NCBI GenBank assembly: GCA_030647435.1
Contig: JAUSJX010000130.1
Coordinates: 1 to 48,912 of the forward strand
Direction of reading: 5' to 3'
Length of the DNA: 48,912 nt
From: Candidatus Rokuibacteriota bacterium
Lineage (GTDB): Bacteria > Methylomirabilota > Methylomirabilia > Rokubacteriales > CSP1-6
Of the stretch, positions 21,734-34,014 are shown piece by piece. Under the pieces are notes generated by a model. It was given only the letters and a program-made list of their open reading frames with translations. It searched no databases and had not been told where the DNA came from. The translations under genes were made by a program, and so were the position numbers. How positions within the stretch are numbered: the stretch's first letter is position 1; every line of letters starts with the position of its first letter.

Positions 21734-21767
21734 GGAGGGCGGCATCGTCGGTCGGCGGAGTCGTGGA

Positions 21768-22076: not shown

Positions 22077-22232
22077 GGGCCCATCTGCTTCGTTGGCTCG
22101 GTCGCTCTTAGCGAAACGTACGGAGAGTACGCCTCGCTCGTCGCATCCCTCGCCGCCTCGCATCTGGACCCTTCTCGCCGGCCTGCGGCCCTCGGGCGCC
22201 GCCTCGCAGATGGGCCCTTATCGGCGGCCTGC
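22062..22232. repeat. Palindromic interspersed element, copy C (compound)
   Basis: The first 120 bp match copies A and B. A second right half is then added, so the outer ends (22062-22088 and 22206-22232) are a perfect 27-bp inverted repeat. Both ends encode A-G-R-R-stop reading inward: the left end terminates the TPR lipoprotein and the right end terminates the YidC-like gene. It separates two convergent genes. Confidence 0.88.
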
Positions 22233-23849
22233 TCGGCCGAGGCGGCGTTTCACTTCTTGGGCGGCGAGCTGGACGGCGTTTGTCGAGGTCCAGTAGAGGA
22301 CCATTCCGGCGGGAAAGGTGTAGAAGAGCAGGAAGAACAGCAGGGTCATGCCCGTCAGGTTTCTGCGCTGCCTGCGAACGAGAGAGGGCGTGAGAGCGGA
22401 GGAGCGGAACCGGAGCAGGGCCGCCAGCGATACGCCGCTCATCAGGAACGGCAGCAGGTTCAGGTAGCACCCGAAGAACGGCAGGCACACGGGCAGCCGC
22501 AACAGCTCGTCCGGCCTCGACAGGTCCTGGATCCAGAGAAACCCCACCCGGCTGAGATCGAAGTCCTCCGCCAGCATGTCGAACACGGCGACGAACACGG
22601 GCAGCTGGATCAGGACGCCGAGCAGGCTCCTCAGCGTGTACAGCGGGTGGACACCCTCCTCACGGTACAGGGCCAGCGTGCGCCGCGCGCGCTCCTCGCC
22701 CCGATGGGCCGCCTTGATGGCGTCGAGCCCTGGCTGAAGCCGCGCCTGTGTGGCGTTGACCTGCTCCTGCCAGCGCTCGGCCACGACCGTCAGCGGCAGG
22801 AGGAGGACCTTGACGGACACCGCGAGGGCGACGATCGCGAGGCCGGGTTGGCCGACGAGCGCGGTCAGCCCGTGGAGGAGGAACAGGAGCGCCAGGCTCA
22901 GCGCGCGCAGCCAGGACCAGAGCCCGGAGAAGAGCAGCCGTTCGAGGCCCGGGTCGGCGCGGGTCAGCGCGCGGCTCTCCAGCGGCCCCGAGTAGAAGGT
23001 GTAGCGCCACGAGAGCCGTCCTGGCGGGTCGGCCGTGACGAGGGCGGCGCTCGCGCCGGACCGAGGCTCGAGGACGCCGGCGTCGCCGGGACGCAGGAAC
23101 ACCGCCCAGAATCGGCCGCGGAATCCCACCCAGTCGCCCGCGCCGAGAGGCGTGGGGTCTCGGGCGTCGTCGCCGACGGCGCGGACGCCGCCTCCAGCGA
23201 TGACCACCCGGCTCACGCGGTCGAGCATCGCGGAGAAGCCTGGTGCGGGCGCCGGGAGGAGACCTCGCCCCGCGCCCAGCTCGAGCTCGAGGCGCCGGCC
23301 CGCCGTGAACGCGGCGGCCTTCTCTCCACTCAGTCGCACCGTCATCACGACCTCGTAGCCCTCCCGCGAGACCTCGAACGACTTGGCCATGCGCACGCCG
23401 CCGCCCGGCAGGTCGGAGCGGAAGGTCACCATCCGGGCGCGTGCGCCCTCGGTGAGGTCGGCGGTGAAGCGCAGGCCCTGGAGATCCACGGGCGGACCAG
23501 GGCCGCGAAGGTAGAGCCGCGCCTGAGGCGGATCATCGCGGCCGGTGAAGCGGACGGACATCCCCTGCCCCACATCGGCCTGCGCGCAGGACGGATGACA
23601 GGCGCGCCACGCGACGGGGCTGGCGCCATCGAGGGAGAACACCAGGTCGAGACGGCTGGTCGTCACGCGGACCCGGTTGCCGCCCGTCTCGTCGGCCGAG
23701 ACAGGCAGGGCGGTCGCGCACGCGAGGAGGAGCAGCCCGGCAATCCGGAGCGGTTGGCGGCCGATCCCCGACGGCCCCCTTCGCCCGCCCAGCCGTGTCG
23801 CTATCGCCAGCCGCGCCGCTATCGCCAGCAGCGCAGCTATCGCCAGCAG
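22218..23849 (-). CDS. YidC/Oxa1-family membrane insertase paralog
   Basis: About 543 residues, close to the 548 of E. coli YidC. A signal-like helix (LRIAGLLLLACATALPVSA) leads to a periplasmic beta-domain (about 55-310, starting VRVTTSRLDLVFSLDGASPVAW). The conserved insertase domain then has GLAIVALAVSVKVLLLPLTV, ALYREEGVHPLYTLRSLLGV, LIQLPVFVAVFDML, LPFLMSGVSLAALLRF and FPAGMVLYWTSTNAVQ. In the groove the E. coli arginine position appears to be lysine (SVKVLLLPL). No ATG, GTG or TTG fits the start; CTG 23849 or 23846, just after the preceding stop, is the best guess. As last gene of the envelope operon it may insert or fold a dedicated partner and not be the housekeeping YidC. Confidence 0.82.
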   Translation of the reverse strand: MLAIAALLAIAARLAIATRLGGRRGPSGIGRQPLRIAGLLLLACATALPVSADETGGNRVRVTTSRLDLVFSLDGASPVAWRACHPSCAQADVGQGMSVRFTGRDDPPQARLYLRGPGPPVDLQGLRFTADLTEGARARMVTFRSDLPGGGVRMAKSFEVSREGYEVVMTVRLSGEKAAAFTAGRRLELELGAGRGLLPAPAPGFSAMLDRVSRVVIAGGGVRAVGDDARDPTPLGAGDWVGFRGRFWAVFLRPGDAGVLEPRSGASAALVTADPPGRLSWRYTFYSGPLESRALTRADPGLERLLFSGLWSWLRALSLALLFLLHGLTALVGQPGLAIVALAVSVKVLLLPLTVVAERWQEQVNATQARLQPGLDAIKAAHRGEERARRTLALYREEGVHPLYTLRSLLGVLIQLPVFVAVFDMLAEDFDLSRVGFLWIQDLSRPDELLRLPVCLPFFGCYLNLLPFLMSGVSLAALLRFRSSALTPSLVRRQRRNLTGMTLLFFLLFYTFPAGMVLYWTSTNAVQLAAQEVKRRLGRAGRR

Positions 23850-23860
23850 CGCAGCTATCG
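23796..23860. repeat. 18-bp tandem repeat at the YejM/YidC gene junction
   Basis: GCTATCGCCAGC recurs at 23800, 23818 and 23836, and GCTATCG at 23854, an exact 18-bp period with minor drift. On the minus strand each unit encodes L-A-I-A-A-L in the YidC frame and CGATAG in the preceding gene's frame; the last unit supplies that gene's TAG. Copy-number changes would lengthen the YidC N-terminus by six residues without shifting the frame. Confidence 0.85.
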
Positions 23861-25651
23861 GTAGAACCGGCGCATCTCCGCGAGCGCAGCCCGCAGGCCC
23901 GCGTTGGGGAGCTGCGGGTTCTGGACGAGGCGATAGTTCCGGTCGCGGATCTCGTAGCCGTTCGGGCGGACGATGGTCACCCGTTCCGGCTCGATCAAGG
24001 CGAAGTCGAGGTGGCTGGCGCCGATGAGCCATTCCCATTGGCTGTCGGAAAAAAGGCTCTGGCCGCTCGCGTAGTCGGAGGGCGGATTCGCGCAGCCGAA
24101 CAGCTCGGTGAGCAGGGTCGGCGCCACGTCGTTGTGGGAGGTTCGGCGAAGGACGCGCCCCGGCGGCCGCCCCGGCCAGCGGATGACCAGCGGCGTGTGC
24201 ATCTGGAGCTCGCTGTAGGCCGTTCCGTGTCCCGTGAAGCCCTGCCCGTTCTCATCGAACTCCATGCCGTGATCGGACGTGACGATGACTACGGTGCGCT
24301 CGTCGAGCTTCCGGCGCGCCAGGTCGTCGAGCACCCGCCCGATCAGGGCGTCGAGGAAGCGCACGGCGGTCAGGTAGCGGGAGTGCCGGCGGACCCACTC
24401 CGACGCGCCCGGCGGGACCGGCACGGCCGGGGGGTAGTCGTCGGGTGGCTCGAAAGCGGCCGCGGCATTGTAGTAGAGGAACCCGAAGAAGGGACGCGAC
24501 GGGTCCCGCCGGTCAAGCCAGTCGTACCACTCATCCGTCAAAATCCGGTCCCTCGCGGCGGACCCTGGGACGGGGGAGATCGTCTCGCGGCGCAGGTTCG
24601 GGATGCGGGCCAGGACCGTCCGATCCAGCTCGACGACCCAGCCGTACACGGGAGAGCTGGAGAACAGGCCGAGCTGGTAGTCGTACTTCCGGAAGAGGTC
24701 CATCAGCACCGGTGGCTGGCCGAGGTCGGCGAAGGCGTCCCAGTAGGTCGCGGGGAGCCCGTAAAACAGGGAGAACATGCCGGCCCGCGACGCGTTCCCG
24801 CCGCTGTAGTGCGCATCGAACCGGGTCGCGCCCTGCGCGAACTCGGCGAGCCTCGGCGCGGCGTTGGGCGCGAGGACATCGGCGCGCATGGCGTCGACCA
24901 CGACGAGCAGGACGTTGAGCATCGGGTGGCGTGGCTCGCACCGCAGGGGGGCCAGCGGGTAGTTGAGCTCGCCGTCGGGCGGCCGGCCGAGGGCGGTGAC
25001 GAGCCTGTGCTCCCGCGCCCGGGCTTCATCCACGAGGCCGAGCCTCGCCATCCGCCGCGAGTCTTTGAGCGGGAAGTACAGCGGCAGGTACCGGGTGAAC
25101 GCGGTCACCGGCACGTAACTGTGCGCCTCGGCCCACGCGTGGGCGAGGTGGCTCGCCACGAAGCAGATCCCGAGGCCCAGCGCCAGATACCTCCCGATGC
25201 GACGCCGCGGGGGGACCGCGCTGCGCTTCCAGACCCAGAGCGCCAGCATCGCCTCGATGGCCACCCCGACGAGGAAGTAGAGCGCGAGAAACGCCCAGGT
25301 CAGCGGCGCCAGCAGGAGGAAGGTCAGGACGCCGACGTGGTACCGGTTCTCGGCGAAGACCAGGCTGTCGAGGACCATGAAGCTGAGAACGGCGCTGGCC
25401 AGAAAGACGCCGAGGGGCACGACCACTTGAGGCCGCGGAACCAGCACCATCACGGGGACCAGCAGGAGGAACGGAATGTACCCGAGCGCGGTCATCTGGC
25501 CCAGGAAGGCGGGGACCGCGTAGATCCAGGCGAGCGAGGGTTGGAGCGCGGAGTAGTACCAGAGGTAGCGCAGGCCGACCCCAGCCAGGAGCGCCGCGTT
25601 GAGGACGGCGAACCAGCTTCCCCAGCGGAGCAGCCGCCTTCTCGCGCTCAC
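23855..25651 (-). CDS. YejM/PbgA-like inner-membrane sulfatase-fold protein
   Basis: The 598-residue protein has five membrane helices (about 13-33, 43-70, 77-100, 111-141, 155-174), an arm (HAWAEAHSYVPVTAFTRYLP) and a periplasmic alkaline-phosphatase-superfamily domain. The layout and many segments (SGGNASRAGMFSLFYGLP, ASGQSLFSD) mirror E. coli YejM (586 aa), which senses LPS and controls LpxC turnover. Unlike E. coli, the metal and nucleophile positions look complete: D253 (VVVDAMRADVL), S288, D460-H461 (TSDHGMEF) and H475 (TGHGTAY). It could therefore be an active phosphoryl-alcohol transferase or hydrolase. GTG 25651 overlaps the upstream stop (GTGA). Confidence 0.85.
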   Translation of the reverse strand: MSARRRLLRWGSWFAVLNAALLAGVGLRYLWYYSALQPSLAWIYAVPAFLGQMTALGYIPFLLLVPVMVLVPRPQVVVPLGVFLASAVLSFMVLDSLVFAENRYHVGVLTFLLLAPLTWAFLALYFLVGVAIEAMLALWVWKRSAVPPRRRIGRYLALGLGICFVASHLAHAWAEAHSYVPVTAFTRYLPLYFPLKDSRRMARLGLVDEARAREHRLVTALGRPPDGELNYPLAPLRCEPRHPMLNVLLVVVDAMRADVLAPNAAPRLAEFAQGATRFDAHYSGGNASRAGMFSLFYGLPATYWDAFADLGQPPVLMDLFRKYDYQLGLFSSSPVYGWVVELDRTVLARIPNLRRETISPVPGSAARDRILTDEWYDWLDRRDPSRPFFGFLYYNAAAAFEPPDDYPPAVPVPPGASEWVRRHSRYLTAVRFLDALIGRVLDDLARRKLDERTVVIVTSDHGMEFDENGQGFTGHGTAYSELQMHTPLVIRWPGRPPGRVLRRTSHNDVAPTLLTELFGCANPPSDYASGQSLFSDSQWEWLIGASHLDFALIEPERVTIVRPNGYEIRDRNYRLVQNPQLPNAGLRAALAEMRRFYR

Positions 25652-26841
25652 TTCTCTCCGCTAGGCCGGCGCCCCGCGTGAAGCGCGGCGCCCGAAGCCC
25701 CGGCGCCCGCCCGCTCGTCCGCGATGCGGGCAATCTCCCGCGCCCCCACCTCCACGCTCCGGCCGACGTTGAAGGCCCATGCATCCCGCAACGCCGCACT
25801 GCGTGTACGGAACTCCGCCGCGCCCCGGAGCAGCTCCGCCGCGCGCTGCGGCGCATCCGCCACTCGATCGAGCGGCAGCACGGTCCCGAGCTCCCGACGG
25901 ATGCGCATCTCCATCGGCTCGAGACCCAGCTCCGCGTACGTCGGGTTCCGCACGCGGGGCGGGACATCGACGAAGAGCACCGGCTTGCCGAGAGCCAGGG
26001 CGTACTCGATGGCCATGGAGGACCAATCACAGATCAAGAGGTCGGACTCGAGCAGCGAGGCGCTCTCCTCCATCCGGTCCACATGGCGGAAGCGCCGGTC
26101 GGGCCCGAACCGGGTGACCAGGCGCTGAACGAGACGCGGCGCGAGCCGGGCCGTCTGGTAGTGCGGCCGCAGGATCACGTGGATGCCGGCGTCCAGCAGG
26201 GCGGCGATCAACGGCTCACCGCAGACGTGCAGGATGGAGTGCTCGCCCCACGTCGGCGCGAGCAGCGCGGTGACCGTGCCCGACGGCGCCCGCGAGTGGG
26301 CGGCGGCCAGCTCGACGAGACGCTCGAGCCGCGGATAGCCGTAGGCGAACAGGTGCTTCGGCGCCAGACCCTTCAGCTCCTCGCGCCGGCGGATCTCGGC
26401 GACGTGATGGGGCCCGGTGCAGAAGAGGTCGTCGTAGTGGTCGTACGAGTTCTCGTGATCCACCATGTGCGTGCTGCCCATGCTATGGAACACGTAGACG
26501 TAGCGCACGGGGTGGACCGATCGCTTGAGCTGGAAGTTCTGGAGGTCCAGCATCGTCAGAACCATGACGTCGGCCTTGAGCATCTGGAAGAACCAGGTGC
26601 GCAGGGCGCCTGAGCGGATGCGGAAGGCGTGCAGGCCGGAGTTGGACGGGGACGGCACGGGCACGGTCTGCTCGGAGGTGACGTGGCAGACCGTCCGGGA
26701 CAGGCGCTCGATGAGGAAGTCGATGAGCGGCTGGAGGTGGTGCCAGTCCTGGTAGGTTTCGGAGTAGAAGACGATGCCGCGGTCGCGCGACGGAAGCTTC
26801 TGGAAGGCGCGGTAGCTCTTCCAGTCCTCCCATATCTTCAT
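25648..26841 (-). CDS. CDP-glycerol:glycerophosphotransferase-family enzyme (TagB/TagF-like)
   Basis: The 397-residue GT-B-fold transferase moves a phospho-alcohol from a CDP carrier to a polymer or sugar at the cytoplasmic membrane face. Family motifs include YVFHSMGSTHMVDHENSYDHY, FCTGPHH, YGYPRLERLV, LLAPTWGEHSIL, VILRPHYQT and ESDLLICDWSSMAIEYALALG followed by KPVLFVDVP. In Firmicutes it builds teichoic acid; in diderms relatives decorate capsules or O-antigens. The missing TagF N-terminal domain suggests a single-addition (TagB-like) enzyme. Both ends overlap neighbours by 4 nt, so it is tightly coupled to the YejM-like gene and the micro-membrane protein. Confidence 0.85.
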   Translation of the reverse strand: MKIWEDWKSYRAFQKLPSRDRGIVFYSETYQDWHHLQPLIDFLIERLSRTVCHVTSEQTVPVPSPSNSGLHAFRIRSGALRTWFFQMLKADVMVLTMLDLQNFQLKRSVHPVRYVYVFHSMGSTHMVDHENSYDHYDDLFCTGPHHVAEIRRREELKGLAPKHLFAYGYPRLERLVELAAAHSRAPSGTVTALLAPTWGEHSILHVCGEPLIAALLDAGIHVILRPHYQTARLAPRLVQRLVTRFGPDRRFRHVDRMEESASLLESDLLICDWSSMAIEYALALGKPVLFVDVPPRVRNPTYAELGLEPMEMRIRRELGTVLPLDRVADAPQRAAELLRGAAEFRTRSAALRDAWAFNVGRSVEVGAREIARIADERAGAGASGAALHAGRRPSGEK

Positions 26842-27050
26842 CGGGCGTCGGGACGTCCGCCCTTCTTGCCGCGAAGCAAGCCGACGAGCCGGTACCAGAA
26901 CAGCTTGAGCGCCAGCCCCACCCCCGCCGCCACGCCGATGATGGCCGAGAGGAGCATGCTGCCGGTCCCGGGATCGAGGTAGGCGTGCGCAGGGGAAGTG
27001 ATCGACAGGCAGGCCACGAGAGCGAGCAGGAAAATCCGCCGGACCGTCAT
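26838..27050 (-). CDS. YLDPGTGS-type small membrane protein
   Basis: A 70-residue protein. The N-terminal signal or helix is MTVRRIFLLALVACLSI, then TSPAHA. The motif AYLDPGTGSMLLSAIIG leads into a second helix (VAAGVGLALKLFWYRLVGLL) and a basic tail. I recognise YLDPGTGSxLLQ...LKxFW as a conserved small protein often found near sulfatase and surface-polysaccharide genes; its function is unknown. It may be an assembly factor for the transferase or hydrolase. ATG 27050 is preferred; TTG 27101 would add 17 residues. Its stop overlaps the next start (ATGA). Confidence 0.75.
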   Translation of the reverse strand: MTVRRIFLLALVACLSITSPAHAYLDPGTGSMLLSAIIGVAAGVGLALKLFWYRLVGLLRGKKGGRPDAR

Positions 27051-27137
27051 CGTCTGGGTTCCACGATTGTCATGAGTACCAGAATCGGCCGTCGGAATCA
27101 AGATCCGCGCGACAGGGATTCAGACTCGGACGGGGAC

Positions 27138-27911
27138 TCAGACCCGAAAGGTGTATGTGCGCGTGGGATCACGCTCGATATCGGGCGGGAAGCTCTTTCG
27201 CTTGTCGGCATAGTAGCGCACGCGGTGATCCCCGGCCGATCGGCGGTTGAAGGTAATGTAGAGCACGCGCCGCCGCTCGGCGGTGAGATTCGGGCCTGAA
27301 GCGTGCGGCGTGTAGGAATCGAAGAACACGGCGTCACCGGCCCGGGTCGGCACCGGACGGGCATCCAGGCGGCGCATGTCGCCGTCGGTCATGGGCGCCC
27401 ACTCTTCCCCCAGAAGGCCCTGCCGGTGTTGTCCGGCGCAGAGCTCCAGGCAGCCGTTCTCGGCGGTGGTCGGGTCGACGCTGACCATGGCGGTGATGAA
27501 CAGGTCGGCGTAGGCGCTCCAGCCGGCCTGCTGGTCCTGATGGGGCTTGAAGCCGTCGCCGCCGGGCAGCTTGAAGTTGATCTTGTCCTTGAAGAGCACC
27601 GCCGGCTCGCCGAAGAGCCGGGACACCGTGCCGCGCAGCTTCTCGCTGTCGCACAGCGCGGCGAAGCCGGCATGGAAGGGGCAGAAGTTCTCGATCCGCT
27701 GGAGCACGCGCTCGCCCGGGCGCAGCAGGCTCGGCTCGAAGTACATCATGCATCGGCCCGGCGCCTCGGGGAGAGCCCCGAGCTCGTCGGTCCACGCCGA
27801 GATCCGCCGCATCTCCTCCTCGCCGAACAGACCCGGTACCGCCACGAAGCCGTCACGCCCGAACGTCTCCGCCAGCTCCGTCTCAGACCGCCGGGTCGCG
27901 CTCTCGCCCAT
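27138..27911 (-). CDS. Phytanoyl-CoA dioxygenase (PhyH)-family 2-oxoglutarate oxygenase
   Basis: The 257-residue Fe(II)/2-oxoglutarate oxygenase has metal ligands H124-x-D126 (FKPHQDQQAGW) and H203 (DSYTPHASGPN), and a 2-oxoglutarate arginine near R214 (RRRVLYITFN). Substrates in the family range from phytanoyl-CoA to ectoine and aminoethylphosphonates. Beside a CDP-alcohol transferase and a nucleotidyltransferase it may hydroxylate the alcohol head group, which is inference. ATG 27911 is preferred; GTG 27917 is the alternative. First gene of the five-gene minus-strand operon. Confidence 0.85.
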   Translation of the reverse strand: MGESATRRSETELAETFGRDGFVAVPGLFGEEEMRRISAWTDELGALPEAPGRCMMYFEPSLLRPGERVLQRIENFCPFHAGFAALCDSEKLRGTVSRLFGEPAVLFKDKINFKLPGGDGFKPHQDQQAGWSAYADLFITAMVSVDPTTAENGCLELCAGQHRQGLLGEEWAPMTDGDMRRLDARPVPTRAGDAVFFDSYTPHASGPNLTAERRRVLYITFNRRSAGDHRVRYYADKRKSFPPDIERDPTRTYTFRV

Positions 27912-27920
27912 GCACACACG

Positions 27921-27927
27921 ATACTAT
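27921..27927. promoter_or_regulatory. Symmetric bidirectional -10 element
   Basis: ATACTAT reads TACTAT on the plus strand (27922-27927) and TAGTAT on the minus strand (27926-27921). The minus-strand -10 is 9 nt from ATG 27911, giving an almost leaderless PhyH message. The plus-strand one would give a leader of about 28 nt before ATG 27962. Overlapping palindromic -10 sequences are a known basis of divergent bacterial transcription. No good -35 is seen on either side. Confidence 0.45.
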
Positions 27928-27961
27928 GGACACGGCGCTTCCCGGATGCGACTCTTAGCGG

Positions 27962-28726
27962 ATGCTGGGCCATGAATTGACGGCGGTCATCCTCGCCGCG
28001 GGTGTGGCGGGCCGGCTTGCGCCGTTGACCGATCACACGCAAAAATCACTCCTGCCGGTCGGAGGCCGGGCGATCCTCGCCTGGATGCTGGAGGCGCTCC
28101 ATGCGGTCGGCGTGCGGCGCGCCGTGATCGTGGTCGGGCACTGCGCGGATCAAGTGACGGCCCTTGCCGCGGCAGCGAAGCACGGCATGACGGTCGAGTG
28201 CGTCCACAACCCCGCCTACCGCAAGGGCTCGTCGATATCCCTCTACAGCGCGCGCGACGTGATCGTCCGGGAGCCGACGCTGATCATGGACGCCGACGTC
28301 GTGTTCCCGCGCGAGTTTCTGCGCCGCCTCGTGCGCTCGGCGGCCGCGAACGCGCTCCTGATCGATCGGGGCTTCGCCGACACGGGCGAGGAAGTGAAGC
28401 TCTATACGCGGCGGGACCGTGTCATCGCCCTCGGGAAGAAAATGGTGCCCACGGCGTGGGATCGCGTCGGGGAGGGCATCGGCTTCTTCAAATGCGGAGC
28501 GGAGGCGGGCCCGGACCTCGTGCACCTGCTCGAGCAGGTGATCGAGCAGAGCCACGGGCTCTGCGAGTACGAGGACGCGCTGCATCTGTTCGTGACCCGG
28601 CAGCACGTCGAGGCGGTGGACGTGACGGGGCTGCCCTGGACGGAGGTCGACTTCGTCGAGGACCTGCGCCGGGCGGAGGCGGAGGTCTTCCCGGCGATCG
28701 CCCGACTCGAGCCGGAAGGTCGTTAG
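27962..28726 (+). CDS. COG1213-type nucleotidyltransferase (phosphocholine cytidylyltransferase-like)
   Basis: The 254-residue NTP transferase has LTAVILAAGVAGRLAPLTDH, then QKSLLPVGGRAILAWMLEAL, NPAYRKGSSISLYSARDVI, the metal-binding LIMDADVVFP (D110, D112), DRGFADTGEEVKLY, KKMVPTAWDRVGEGIGFFKC and DVTGLPWTEVDFVEDLRRAE. The KGSSISLYSAR and VDFVEDLxRA pattern fits LicC-like enzymes that join CTP to phosphocholine or related phospho-alcohols more than sugar-nucleotide synthases. It could supply the CDP-alcohol for the transferase at 25648-26841, with which it shares a divergent promoter. Activated group unknown. Confidence 0.85.
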   Translation: MLGHELTAVILAAGVAGRLAPLTDHTQKSLLPVGGRAILAWMLEALHAVGVRRAVIVVGHCADQVTALAAAAKHGMTVECVHNPAYRKGSSISLYSARDVIVREPTLIMDADVVFPREFLRRLVRSAAANALLIDRGFADTGEEVKLYTRRDRVIALGKKMVPTAWDRVGEGIGFFKCGAEAGPDLVHLLEQVIEQSHGLCEYEDALHLFVTRQHVEAVDVTGLPWTEVDFVEDLRRAEAEVFPAIARLEPEGR

Positions 28727-28744
28727 CCCGCGGACGTCCGCCGA

Positions 28745-31678: not shown

Positions 31679-33094
<1,416 letters not shown>

Positions 33095-33765: not shown

Positions 33766-34014
33766 CAGATCAACAACTCCTGCTGCTTCCCCGGCTTCTT
33801 CCGGGGCCTGCTCGACGTGCGGGCGCGCAGCGTCAACGACGAGATGAAGCTGGCGGCGGCGCACGCGCTCGCGGGCATCGTGGCCGACAGCGAGATCAGC
33901 GAGGAGTACATCACGCCGTCCATGTTCGACCCGCGGGTGGTGCCCACGGTGGCCGCCGCACTGGCGGACGCCGCGGTGCGGACCGGCGTGGCGCGCAAGA
34001 CCGGCCGCAAATAG
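33766..34014 (+). pseudogene. Second, diverged copy of the malic-enzyme 3' end
   Basis: These 249 bp align without gaps to 32846-33094 (offset 920 bp) through the stop codon. I count 15 differences (94 % identity). They fall in 12 codons: nine synonymous, three amino-acid changing (Arg to Ile, Asn to Ser, Val to Leu). It begins abruptly at CAGATCAAC, with no similarity upstream and no start. The synonymous bias means the copy evolved as part of a full gene before being cut off. Confidence 0.9.

Follow-up and report, generated by a model that had tools for sequence, protein, structure and literature searches.

Why would a diderm bacterium keep a nucleotidyltransferase, an oxygenase, a small membrane protein with the motif YLDPGTGS, a TagB/F-like transferase, a homologue of YejM and an additional YidC side by side? 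The question is raised by positions 22218-28726 of contig JAUSJX010000130.1 (assembly GCA_030647435.1) from a Candidatus Rokuibacteriota bacterium, this contig as a whole—48,912 nucleotides—being designated here as the window, and its source, a Rokubacterial genome of 5.8 Mb that is 98.5% complete, as G000. The initial annotation had read the six genes as an envelope-decoration system activating a phospho-alcohol with CTP, and both their positions and their families are borne out by the listing of open reading frames and by the Pfam and NCBIfam family calls. The six genes make up a real, conserved and sporadically distributed cassette; its function, as given below, is a prediction, the reading preferred here—with a probability of about 0.45—being a horizontally mobile pathway that decorates the cell envelope with an aminophosphonate head group, likely 2-aminoethylphosphonate (AEP) or its hydroxylated form (hydroxy-AEP). 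The features are as follows:

27962-28726, plus strand: nucleotidyltransferase (NTase) of the LicC/PntC type, COG1213-like and predicted to be CTP-dependent (PF12804, 58.8 bits; PF00483)
27918-27961, no strand: divergent intergenic region of 44 nt with a -10-like element, CATAGTATC, at 27928-27920 of the minus strand
27138-27917, minus strand: PhyH, a predicted Fe(II)/2-oxoglutarate oxygenase near the PhnY*/methylphosphonate hydroxylase group (PF05721, E 6e-26, 92.4 bits)
26838-27101, minus strand: YLDPGTGS small membrane protein (invariant Y[LI]DPGTGS; hydropathy)
25648-26841, minus strand: TagB/F-like single-domain protein, putative CDP-alcohol phosphotransferase (PF04464, 32.2 bits against a cut-off of 22.1)
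23855-25651, minus strand: YejM/PbgA/LapC homologue (PF11893, i.e. DUF3413, 165 bits; PF00884, Sulfatase, 120 bits)
22218 to about 23858, minus strand: YidC paralogue (PF02096, 60KD_IMP, 98.5 bits)
23789-23860, minus strand: 18-nt tandem repeat in four copies, spanning the YejM/YidC junction and the signal-like segment of YidC

The cassette occurs in at least four further genomes of the Rokubacteria, which are uncultured soil bacteria: it is complete in three of them (G002, G079 and G032), and the contig of the fourth, G086, ends inside the YidC gene. The identities are 56-87% and the synteny extends across genera, so that the neighbourhood is not confined to the genome in which it was noticed. 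Contig ends cut it in G004, where the genes from the NTase to part of the YejM homologue are kept, and in G083, which keeps those from the NTase to the TagB/F-like gene, G084 having a YejM fragment only; the YidC gene stays in the cassette wherever the contig permits the check. The outer flanking genes of the window do not adjoin the cassette in the other genomes. Co-occurrence, another check proposed in the initial annotation, points the same way: the YLDPGTG motif was found, always as a single copy, in 7 of 94 genomes of the phylum and DUF3413 in 7 of 95, with six genomes common to both sets (hypergeometric p about 6e-8, with the relatedness of the genomes ignored), and in the two genomes that do not match, the hit sits on a contig of about 3.2 kb. 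Since the cassette is conserved amid changing flanks and two of its components co-occur, the grouping does not appear to be due to chance. It is true that the carriers are only seven or eight related genomes, as would be expected if the genes were mere neighbours or simply co-inherited without a shared function; yet they stay together while the flanks vary, and in G086, where the YejM gene lies on the opposite side of the NTase gene and the YidC gene directly follows the TagB/F-like gene, again with a 4-nt overlap, they are reshuffled and still linked, making that explanation very improbable.

It should be pointed out that the sister genome G001 has no such cassette. Its flanks match the window with 90-93% identity as far as base 21734 and again from base 28735 onwards, and the 3.3 kb at the corresponding site hold a gene of the ABC substrate-binding type and, as read from the sequence, one resembling an antiporter gene. 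The NTase copy of G086, moreover, groups with another genus in the NTase tree (support 0.84). On account of both, the cassette is regarded as sporadic and has probably been passed between lineages, i.e. it is horizontally mobile.

The nucleotidyltransferase and the oxygenase

The NTase contains a MobA-like NTP transferase domain scoring above the PF12804 cut-off and an N-terminal loop of the LAAGxxxRLxPLTxxxxKxLLPVGG type, and its best matches in the PDB are PntC (6pd1), ranked first, and LicC (1jyk), ranked second. None of the sugar-nucleotide models reached its cut-off in the NCBIfam search. Grouping with sugar-nucleotide enzymes, named in the initial annotation as an outcome contrary to its proposal, is not seen, and the protein is assigned by its sequence to the LicC/PntC family, being of the LicC/PntC/IPCT type; we propose it as a predicted activator of AEP or hydroxy-AEP with CTP. 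The AlphaFold model of the NTase, with a predicted local distance difference test score (pLDDT) of 46, was too poor for use and was set aside. Identities to the counterparts in six other Rokubacteria amount to 77-84%, the stretch ILAAGVAxRLAPLTDxTQKSLL being invariant. In the NTase tree the cassette-borne enzymes form one clade (support 1.000) inside a wider Rokubacterial NTase family with which they share common motifs, and because of this nesting and the shared motifs a common substrate is likely. About 25 Rokubacteria without the cassette carry a strong homologue, those compared being 54-67% identical.

Concerning the PhyH protein, its iron and 2-oxoglutarate ligands (HQD...H...R)—the triad and arginine of PF05721—are conserved, and HQD, PHAS and ERRRVLY are invariant. 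The closest NCBIfam model is that of methylphosphonate hydroxylase (NF052437), matched with 181.5 bits against a cut-off of 500, so that the protein is not assigned as its member. The best plasmid match (44.9% identity) is encoded on pC5.7d of R. rhizogenes, beside an NTase homologue (35.8%) and LicD. The three genes stand in line in the order NTase-PhyH-LicD, with a 1-nt gap followed by a 1-nt overlap (L112 8974-11235), inside a complete AEP region comprising aepX, aepY, an AEP transaminase and PhnCDE. Like the cassette, this locus combines neighbouring NTase and PhyH genes, homologous to those of the window, with a head-group transferase gene next to them, but the two genes are codirectional there and divergent in the cassette, LicD takes the place of the TagB/F-like gene, and no YejM, YidC or YLDPGTGS gene is annotated in the stretch examined. 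As an operon in a complete AEP region, the plasmid trio is in its own right a tractable test case for the activation of hydroxy-AEP. On Roseomonas p1318-3 an NTase homologue lies beside aepX, aepY, an AEP transaminase, a CDP-alcohol phosphatidyltransferase, an MMPL transporter and VacJ, and in Sulfitobacter the NTase adjoins a class V aminotransferase and a CDP-alcohol phosphatidyltransferase. In Rhizobium and Roseomonas it is the homologues, and not the cassette NTase itself, that adjoin AEP biosynthesis genes. The phospho-alcohol suggested in the initial annotation is thus replaced here by a phosphonate, AEP or hydroxy-AEP, as the more likely substrate, because homologues of the NTase and the PhyH protein adjoin, followed by LicD, inside the AEP cluster of R. 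rhizogenes.

This choice is consistent with what has been described elsewhere. PhnY* converts AEP to (R)-1-hydroxy-AEP, and lipids of Bdellovibrio stolpii carry hydroxy-AEP as a head group (PMC8154272). Phosphonate clusters commonly rely on LicC-like enzymes to activate the groups with which the surface is tailored (PMC6697681). Like such Pnt/Lic-type clusters (PntC, LicC, LicD; PMC6697681), the cassette is predicted to activate a small phosphorus head group with CTP by an enzyme of the LicC type and then to pass it to an acceptor on the surface; it differs from them in having no fused or linked phosphoenolpyruvate (PEP) mutase, in the replacement of LicD by the TagB/F-like protein and in the addition of the YejM-like, YLDPGTGS and YidC proteins.

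Several observations weigh against an aminophosphonate. No canonical PEP mutase was found in G000, the best TIGR02320 match reaching 141 bits against a cut-off of 319.6, and the orthologues of this match in G001, G002 and G003 carry EDQVAPKKCG rather than EDKxxxxxNS; among the 16 genomes searched, a PEP mutase with EDKxxxxxNS above the cut-off is present only in G022, in G034 and, split, in the cassette-bearing G032. The Ppd-like gene of G000 scores 303.8 bits, just under the cut-off of 312.5. Identity to the Rhizobium pair is low for both the NTase and PhyH, the PhyH family is catalytically diverse, and the cassette holds no acceptor gene. For want of a canonical PEP mutase, G000 would therefore have to import the phosphonate or make it by an unrecognised route.

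The transferase and the periplasmic components

The TagB/F-like protein passes the gathering score of PF04464 and has the motif DWS(S/A), while HSMGSTH, GYPRLERL, APTWGE, RPHYQ and DxLxCDWSxMAIEYAL are invariant in seven genomes; HSMGSTH, RPHYQ and DWS(S/A) are taken by us to correspond to the catalytic residues of TagF. The TagF-type motifs are intact, and a loss of CDP-binding residues, the other contrary outcome foreseen in the initial annotation, is not seen. With the AlphaFold2 model, of moderate quality (pLDDT 69), Foldseek ranks TagF in complex with CDP-glycerol (3l7k) first (E 6e-8), many GT-B enzymes following close behind; in a second comparison with the PDB, TagF was not among the best 50 listed, which says nothing against the assignment. 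A sequence search of the PDB gave no match, the protein being a divergent member, and it is considered a putative CDP-alcohol phosphotransferase with a GT-B TagF-like fold. Teichoic-acid-type chemistry beside a YejM homologue in a diderm, presented in the initial annotation as unusual, is less so than claimed, TagF-like capsule polymerases being established in Gram-negative diderms (PMC8262930). As is predicted for the cassette protein, these transfer a polyol- or sugar-phosphate in a diderm by means of a TagF fold, but they are multidomain enzymes, whereas the cassette protein is single-domain and divergent (PMC8262930). A TagB/F profile found no match in viral contigs and 148 Bacteroidota genomes, which, without a positive control, shows little, and a Bacteroidales candidate (L010) proved to be a false match inside a DNA polymerase III alpha-like reading frame.

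The YejM homologue consists of the N-terminal DUF3413 membrane domain and a periplasmic domain of the alkaline-phosphatase/sulfatase fold, and matches the YejM crystal structures over its whole length (220 bits). Its 280 bits against NF038282 lie below the cut-off of 825, so that it is a homologue for which functional equivalence to YejM is not implied. The E. coli protein is a Mg-dependent phosphatase in vitro, the activity of which drops on mutating Thr302 or Arg451 (PMC7576196). In the window the first position is occupied by Ser and the second by the His of an Asp-His-Gly motif, both conserved in six homologues; the metal-site Asp and SDHG are likewise found in all six, and GHG in five of them. 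The formylglycine sulfatase motif C/S-x-P-x-R is absent, the nucleophile site in the six homologues being GGN(A/S/V)SR(A/P)G. The initial annotation spoke of a YejM-like hydrolase with a sulfatase fold; the fold stands, whereas a sulfatase is not indicated by the motif, which is of the Ser/Thr phosphotransferase type. Because the Ser nucleophile and the Asp-His metal site are kept, the protein probably has enzymatic activity as a phosphotransferase or phosphatase. Compared with YejM/PbgA/LapC (PMC7576196), it has the same full-length arrangement of DUF3413 and periplasmic hydrolase domain, but it is encoded inside a proposed decoration operon and has the Asp-His metal site with a Ser nucleophile. 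That architecture, together with the presence of LpxC in 14 of 14 genomes checked, would also suit a lipid-level sensor like E. coli LapC, which controls LpxC, instead of a pathway enzyme; relatives that have no YejM homologue, however, contain LpxC just the same, the homologue being carried by only 7 of 95 genomes of the phylum, and the protein keeps the Asp-His-Gly and the Ser of the active site, so that a sensor is improbable. G004 (L025 2697-4364) has a second, solitary YejM homologue that lacks part of the membrane domain and adjoins a solute-binding protein gene, this assembly being 8% contaminated.

The YLDPGTGS protein likely starts at 27050 (MTVRR...), and its hydropathy indicates a signal-like segment ending with AHA just before YLDPGTGS, followed by one transmembrane segment and a basic tail. 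The motif Y[LI]DPGTGS is invariant in 11 sequences from three phyla; Pfam and NCBIfam assign the protein to no family, and in the open-access literature searched no protein of this kind with the motif was found. The relatives come from rhizobial plasmids and a few Bacteroidota, one of the latter near an MBOAT-like O-acyltransferase gene (read from the sequence), one of four Bacteroidota pattern matches (L048) having been discarded because the motif arises there by chance in the context of a different reading frame and does not belong to the small protein. The pattern gave no match in viral contigs, and the phage collection contained no such protein. In rhizobia a YLDPGTGS protein precedes a methyltransferase and a sulfatase-fold membrane enzyme; on pSymA of S. 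meliloti (L035 5953-9280) the three genes, next to a gene for a NodL-like acetyltransferase, make up a single unit, possibly a surface-modification operon of this nitrogen-fixing symbiont.

The YidC paralogue scores 98.5 bits with 60KD_IMP (cut-off 35) and 103.4 bits with yidC_oxa1_cterm (cut-off 84.3), the housekeeping YidC (218 bits) being encoded on another contig of G000. Lys at the position of E. coli YidC Arg366 was dropped as a special feature, the housekeeping protein having Lys as well. From the linkage, we infer that the paralogue may serve the YejM homologue or the YLDPGTGS protein.

Competing head groups and the proposed pathway

One alternative head group is inositol: the NTase would make CDP-inositol from the inositol-1-phosphate supplied by inositol-phosphate synthase (MIPS), the TagB/F-like protein would attach phosphoinositol to the envelope and PhyH would act on the acceptor. 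All 13 NTase-homologue loci read in genomes without the cassette represent a conserved hopanoid/Mla locus, in which the NTase directly precedes a CDP-alcohol phosphatidyltransferase, with a MIPS gene nearby in 12, a 2-oxoglutarate (2OG)-type oxygenase in most and PEP-mutase-like or Ppd genes in about half, the order being SHC-MlaEFD-HpnM-(PEP mutase-like, Ppd)-NTase-CDP-alcohol phosphatidyltransferase-2OG oxygenase-MIPS-HpnN. A cluster of MIPS, NTP transferase and CDP-alcohol transferase has been proposed for CDP-inositol in Bacteroidetes, unconfirmed there (PMC9246714); it is like the Rokubacterial locus in these three genes, but has a HAD hydrolase instead of the 2OG oxygenase and no TagB/F, YejM or YidC. 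MIPS is kept in 15 of the 15 genomes searched, but also where the NTase family is absent, e.g. in G001. The top NCBIfam match of the NTase, IPCT/DIPPS (91.8 bits), was dropped as a sign of CDP-inositol because the NTases inside AEP clusters give the same top match. The adjacency and type of PhyH point to phosphonates, and inositol is, on balance, unlikely. The hopanoid locus shares with the cassette a trio of homologous NTase, 2OG-type oxygenase and CDP-alcohol transferase, the latter two from other families. Because this locus is present in the cassette-bearing G000, G002, G032 and G086 without its NTase, transferase and oxygenase, the trio occurs in either setting with unrelated transferases; a mutual exclusion of the two NTases (both in none of seven genomes, p about 0.009) is confounded by genus and was not retained. 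In G000 the locus (L099 7094-10388, C141) has a Ppd-like gene, a lysylphosphatidylglycerol-synthase-like membrane gene (read from the sequence) and MIPS, in a genome without a canonical PEP mutase. In G016 (L080 5948-7615) a PEP-mutase-like/NTase fusion with the non-canonical EDNIFPKTCS adjoins Ppd; it could be a variant of PEP mutase or else another kind of lyase.

Phosphocholine or phosphoethanolamine, as in the Lic pathway, is rather unlikely. LicC is of the same family and the second PDB match, and in pairwise alignments of the amine-binding positions D110 of the NTase is LicC-like (Asp105; Glu104 in Tde-PntC); E204, however, within EYEDA at the place of EYEHA in Tde-PntC, corresponds to PntC Glu196 and not to LicC Asp192, and there is no choline kinase or transporter within the cassette (LicA was not searched for in the genome). 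More improbable still is a glycerol- or polyol-phosphate teichoic-acid-like polymer, made by the TagB/F-like protein as in Gram-negative capsules and modified by the other gene products. The diderm TagF-like capsule polymerases and the top Foldseek match agree with it, but the cassette contains neither a TagD-type glycerol-phosphate cytidylyltransferase nor a partner sugar-transferase domain, and the PhyH and LicC-type NTase genes would be left unexplained.

Under the preferred aminophosphonate reading, the substrate of PhyH would be a small aminophosphonate, most likely AEP, to be hydroxylated to 1-hydroxy-AEP, and the NTase would convert the product with CTP to a CMP-phosphonate, though these two steps might follow in the opposite order. 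The TagB/F-like enzyme—occupying the place of LicD or of the CDP-alcohol phosphatidyltransferase in related clusters—would transfer the head group, on the cytoplasmic side of the inner membrane, to an acceptor linked to a lipid or glycan, and after export the YejM-like metalloenzyme with its Ser nucleophile might move or trim the group in the periplasm, the YLDPGTGS protein acting as a small partner and the YidC paralogue inserting the YejM-like protein, the YLDPGTGS protein or both. The cassette would thus represent surface tailoring of the LicC/PntC type, its first half resembling known phosphonate decoration and its second half being unprecedented, with no described counterpart as far as searched. 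Doubtful, in our opinion, is the widest form of the proposal, namely a complete hydroxylated-aminophosphonate route onto a diderm envelope via a TagB/F-type transferase and a dedicated periplasmic relay (YLDPGTGS, an active YejM-type enzyme and its own YidC), with the YLDPGTGS proteins of different phyla serving generally as small partners of transferases that have the sulfatase fold. Phosphonates on cell surfaces are believed to be widespread, although what follows their activation with CTP is for the most part unassigned; if the proposal is true, the cassette names candidates for them, the TagB/F-type transferase and the periplasmic YejM-type enzyme with its own YidC. It would also offer a non-essential setting in which to investigate the purpose of enzymatic activity in YejM proteins, and a first clue to the function of the small YLDPGTGS membrane proteins, a family without a name.

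Gene layout and neighbouring features

The chaining mostly by 4-nt overlaps, described in the initial annotation, holds exactly for the YLDPGTGS/TagB/F (ATGA) and TagB/F/YejM (GTGA) junctions, but PhyH and the YLDPGTGS gene are separated by a 36-nt gap, and YejM and YidC overlap in this way only with an ATA start. From the YejM stop to the signal-like segment of YidC, no ATG, GTG or TTG stands in frame in the window, and the aligned junction reads ATGA in G032 and ATG, overlapping the stop by one base, in G002; a non-standard ATA start at 23858, overlapping the YejM stop by 4 nt (ATAG), is therefore probable. The listed ATG at 24038 is an unlikely start, since 184 nt of YidC would then lie over YejM in a different reading frame. 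The tandem repeat at 23789-23860 is in frame and repeats the ATA codon, so that it could change the length of the signal-like segment.

In the 44-nt divergent gap, TATAGTATC is exact in five of seven genomes, the window having CATAGTATC and G002 being diverged; the -10-like element occurs once within the window. No Rfam families were found in the region. Outside the cassette, the 3' end of a malic-enzyme-like gene (32846-33094) recurs about 0.9 kb downstream, at 33766-34014, as a copy of 249 nt with 94% identity, which represents a partial duplication.

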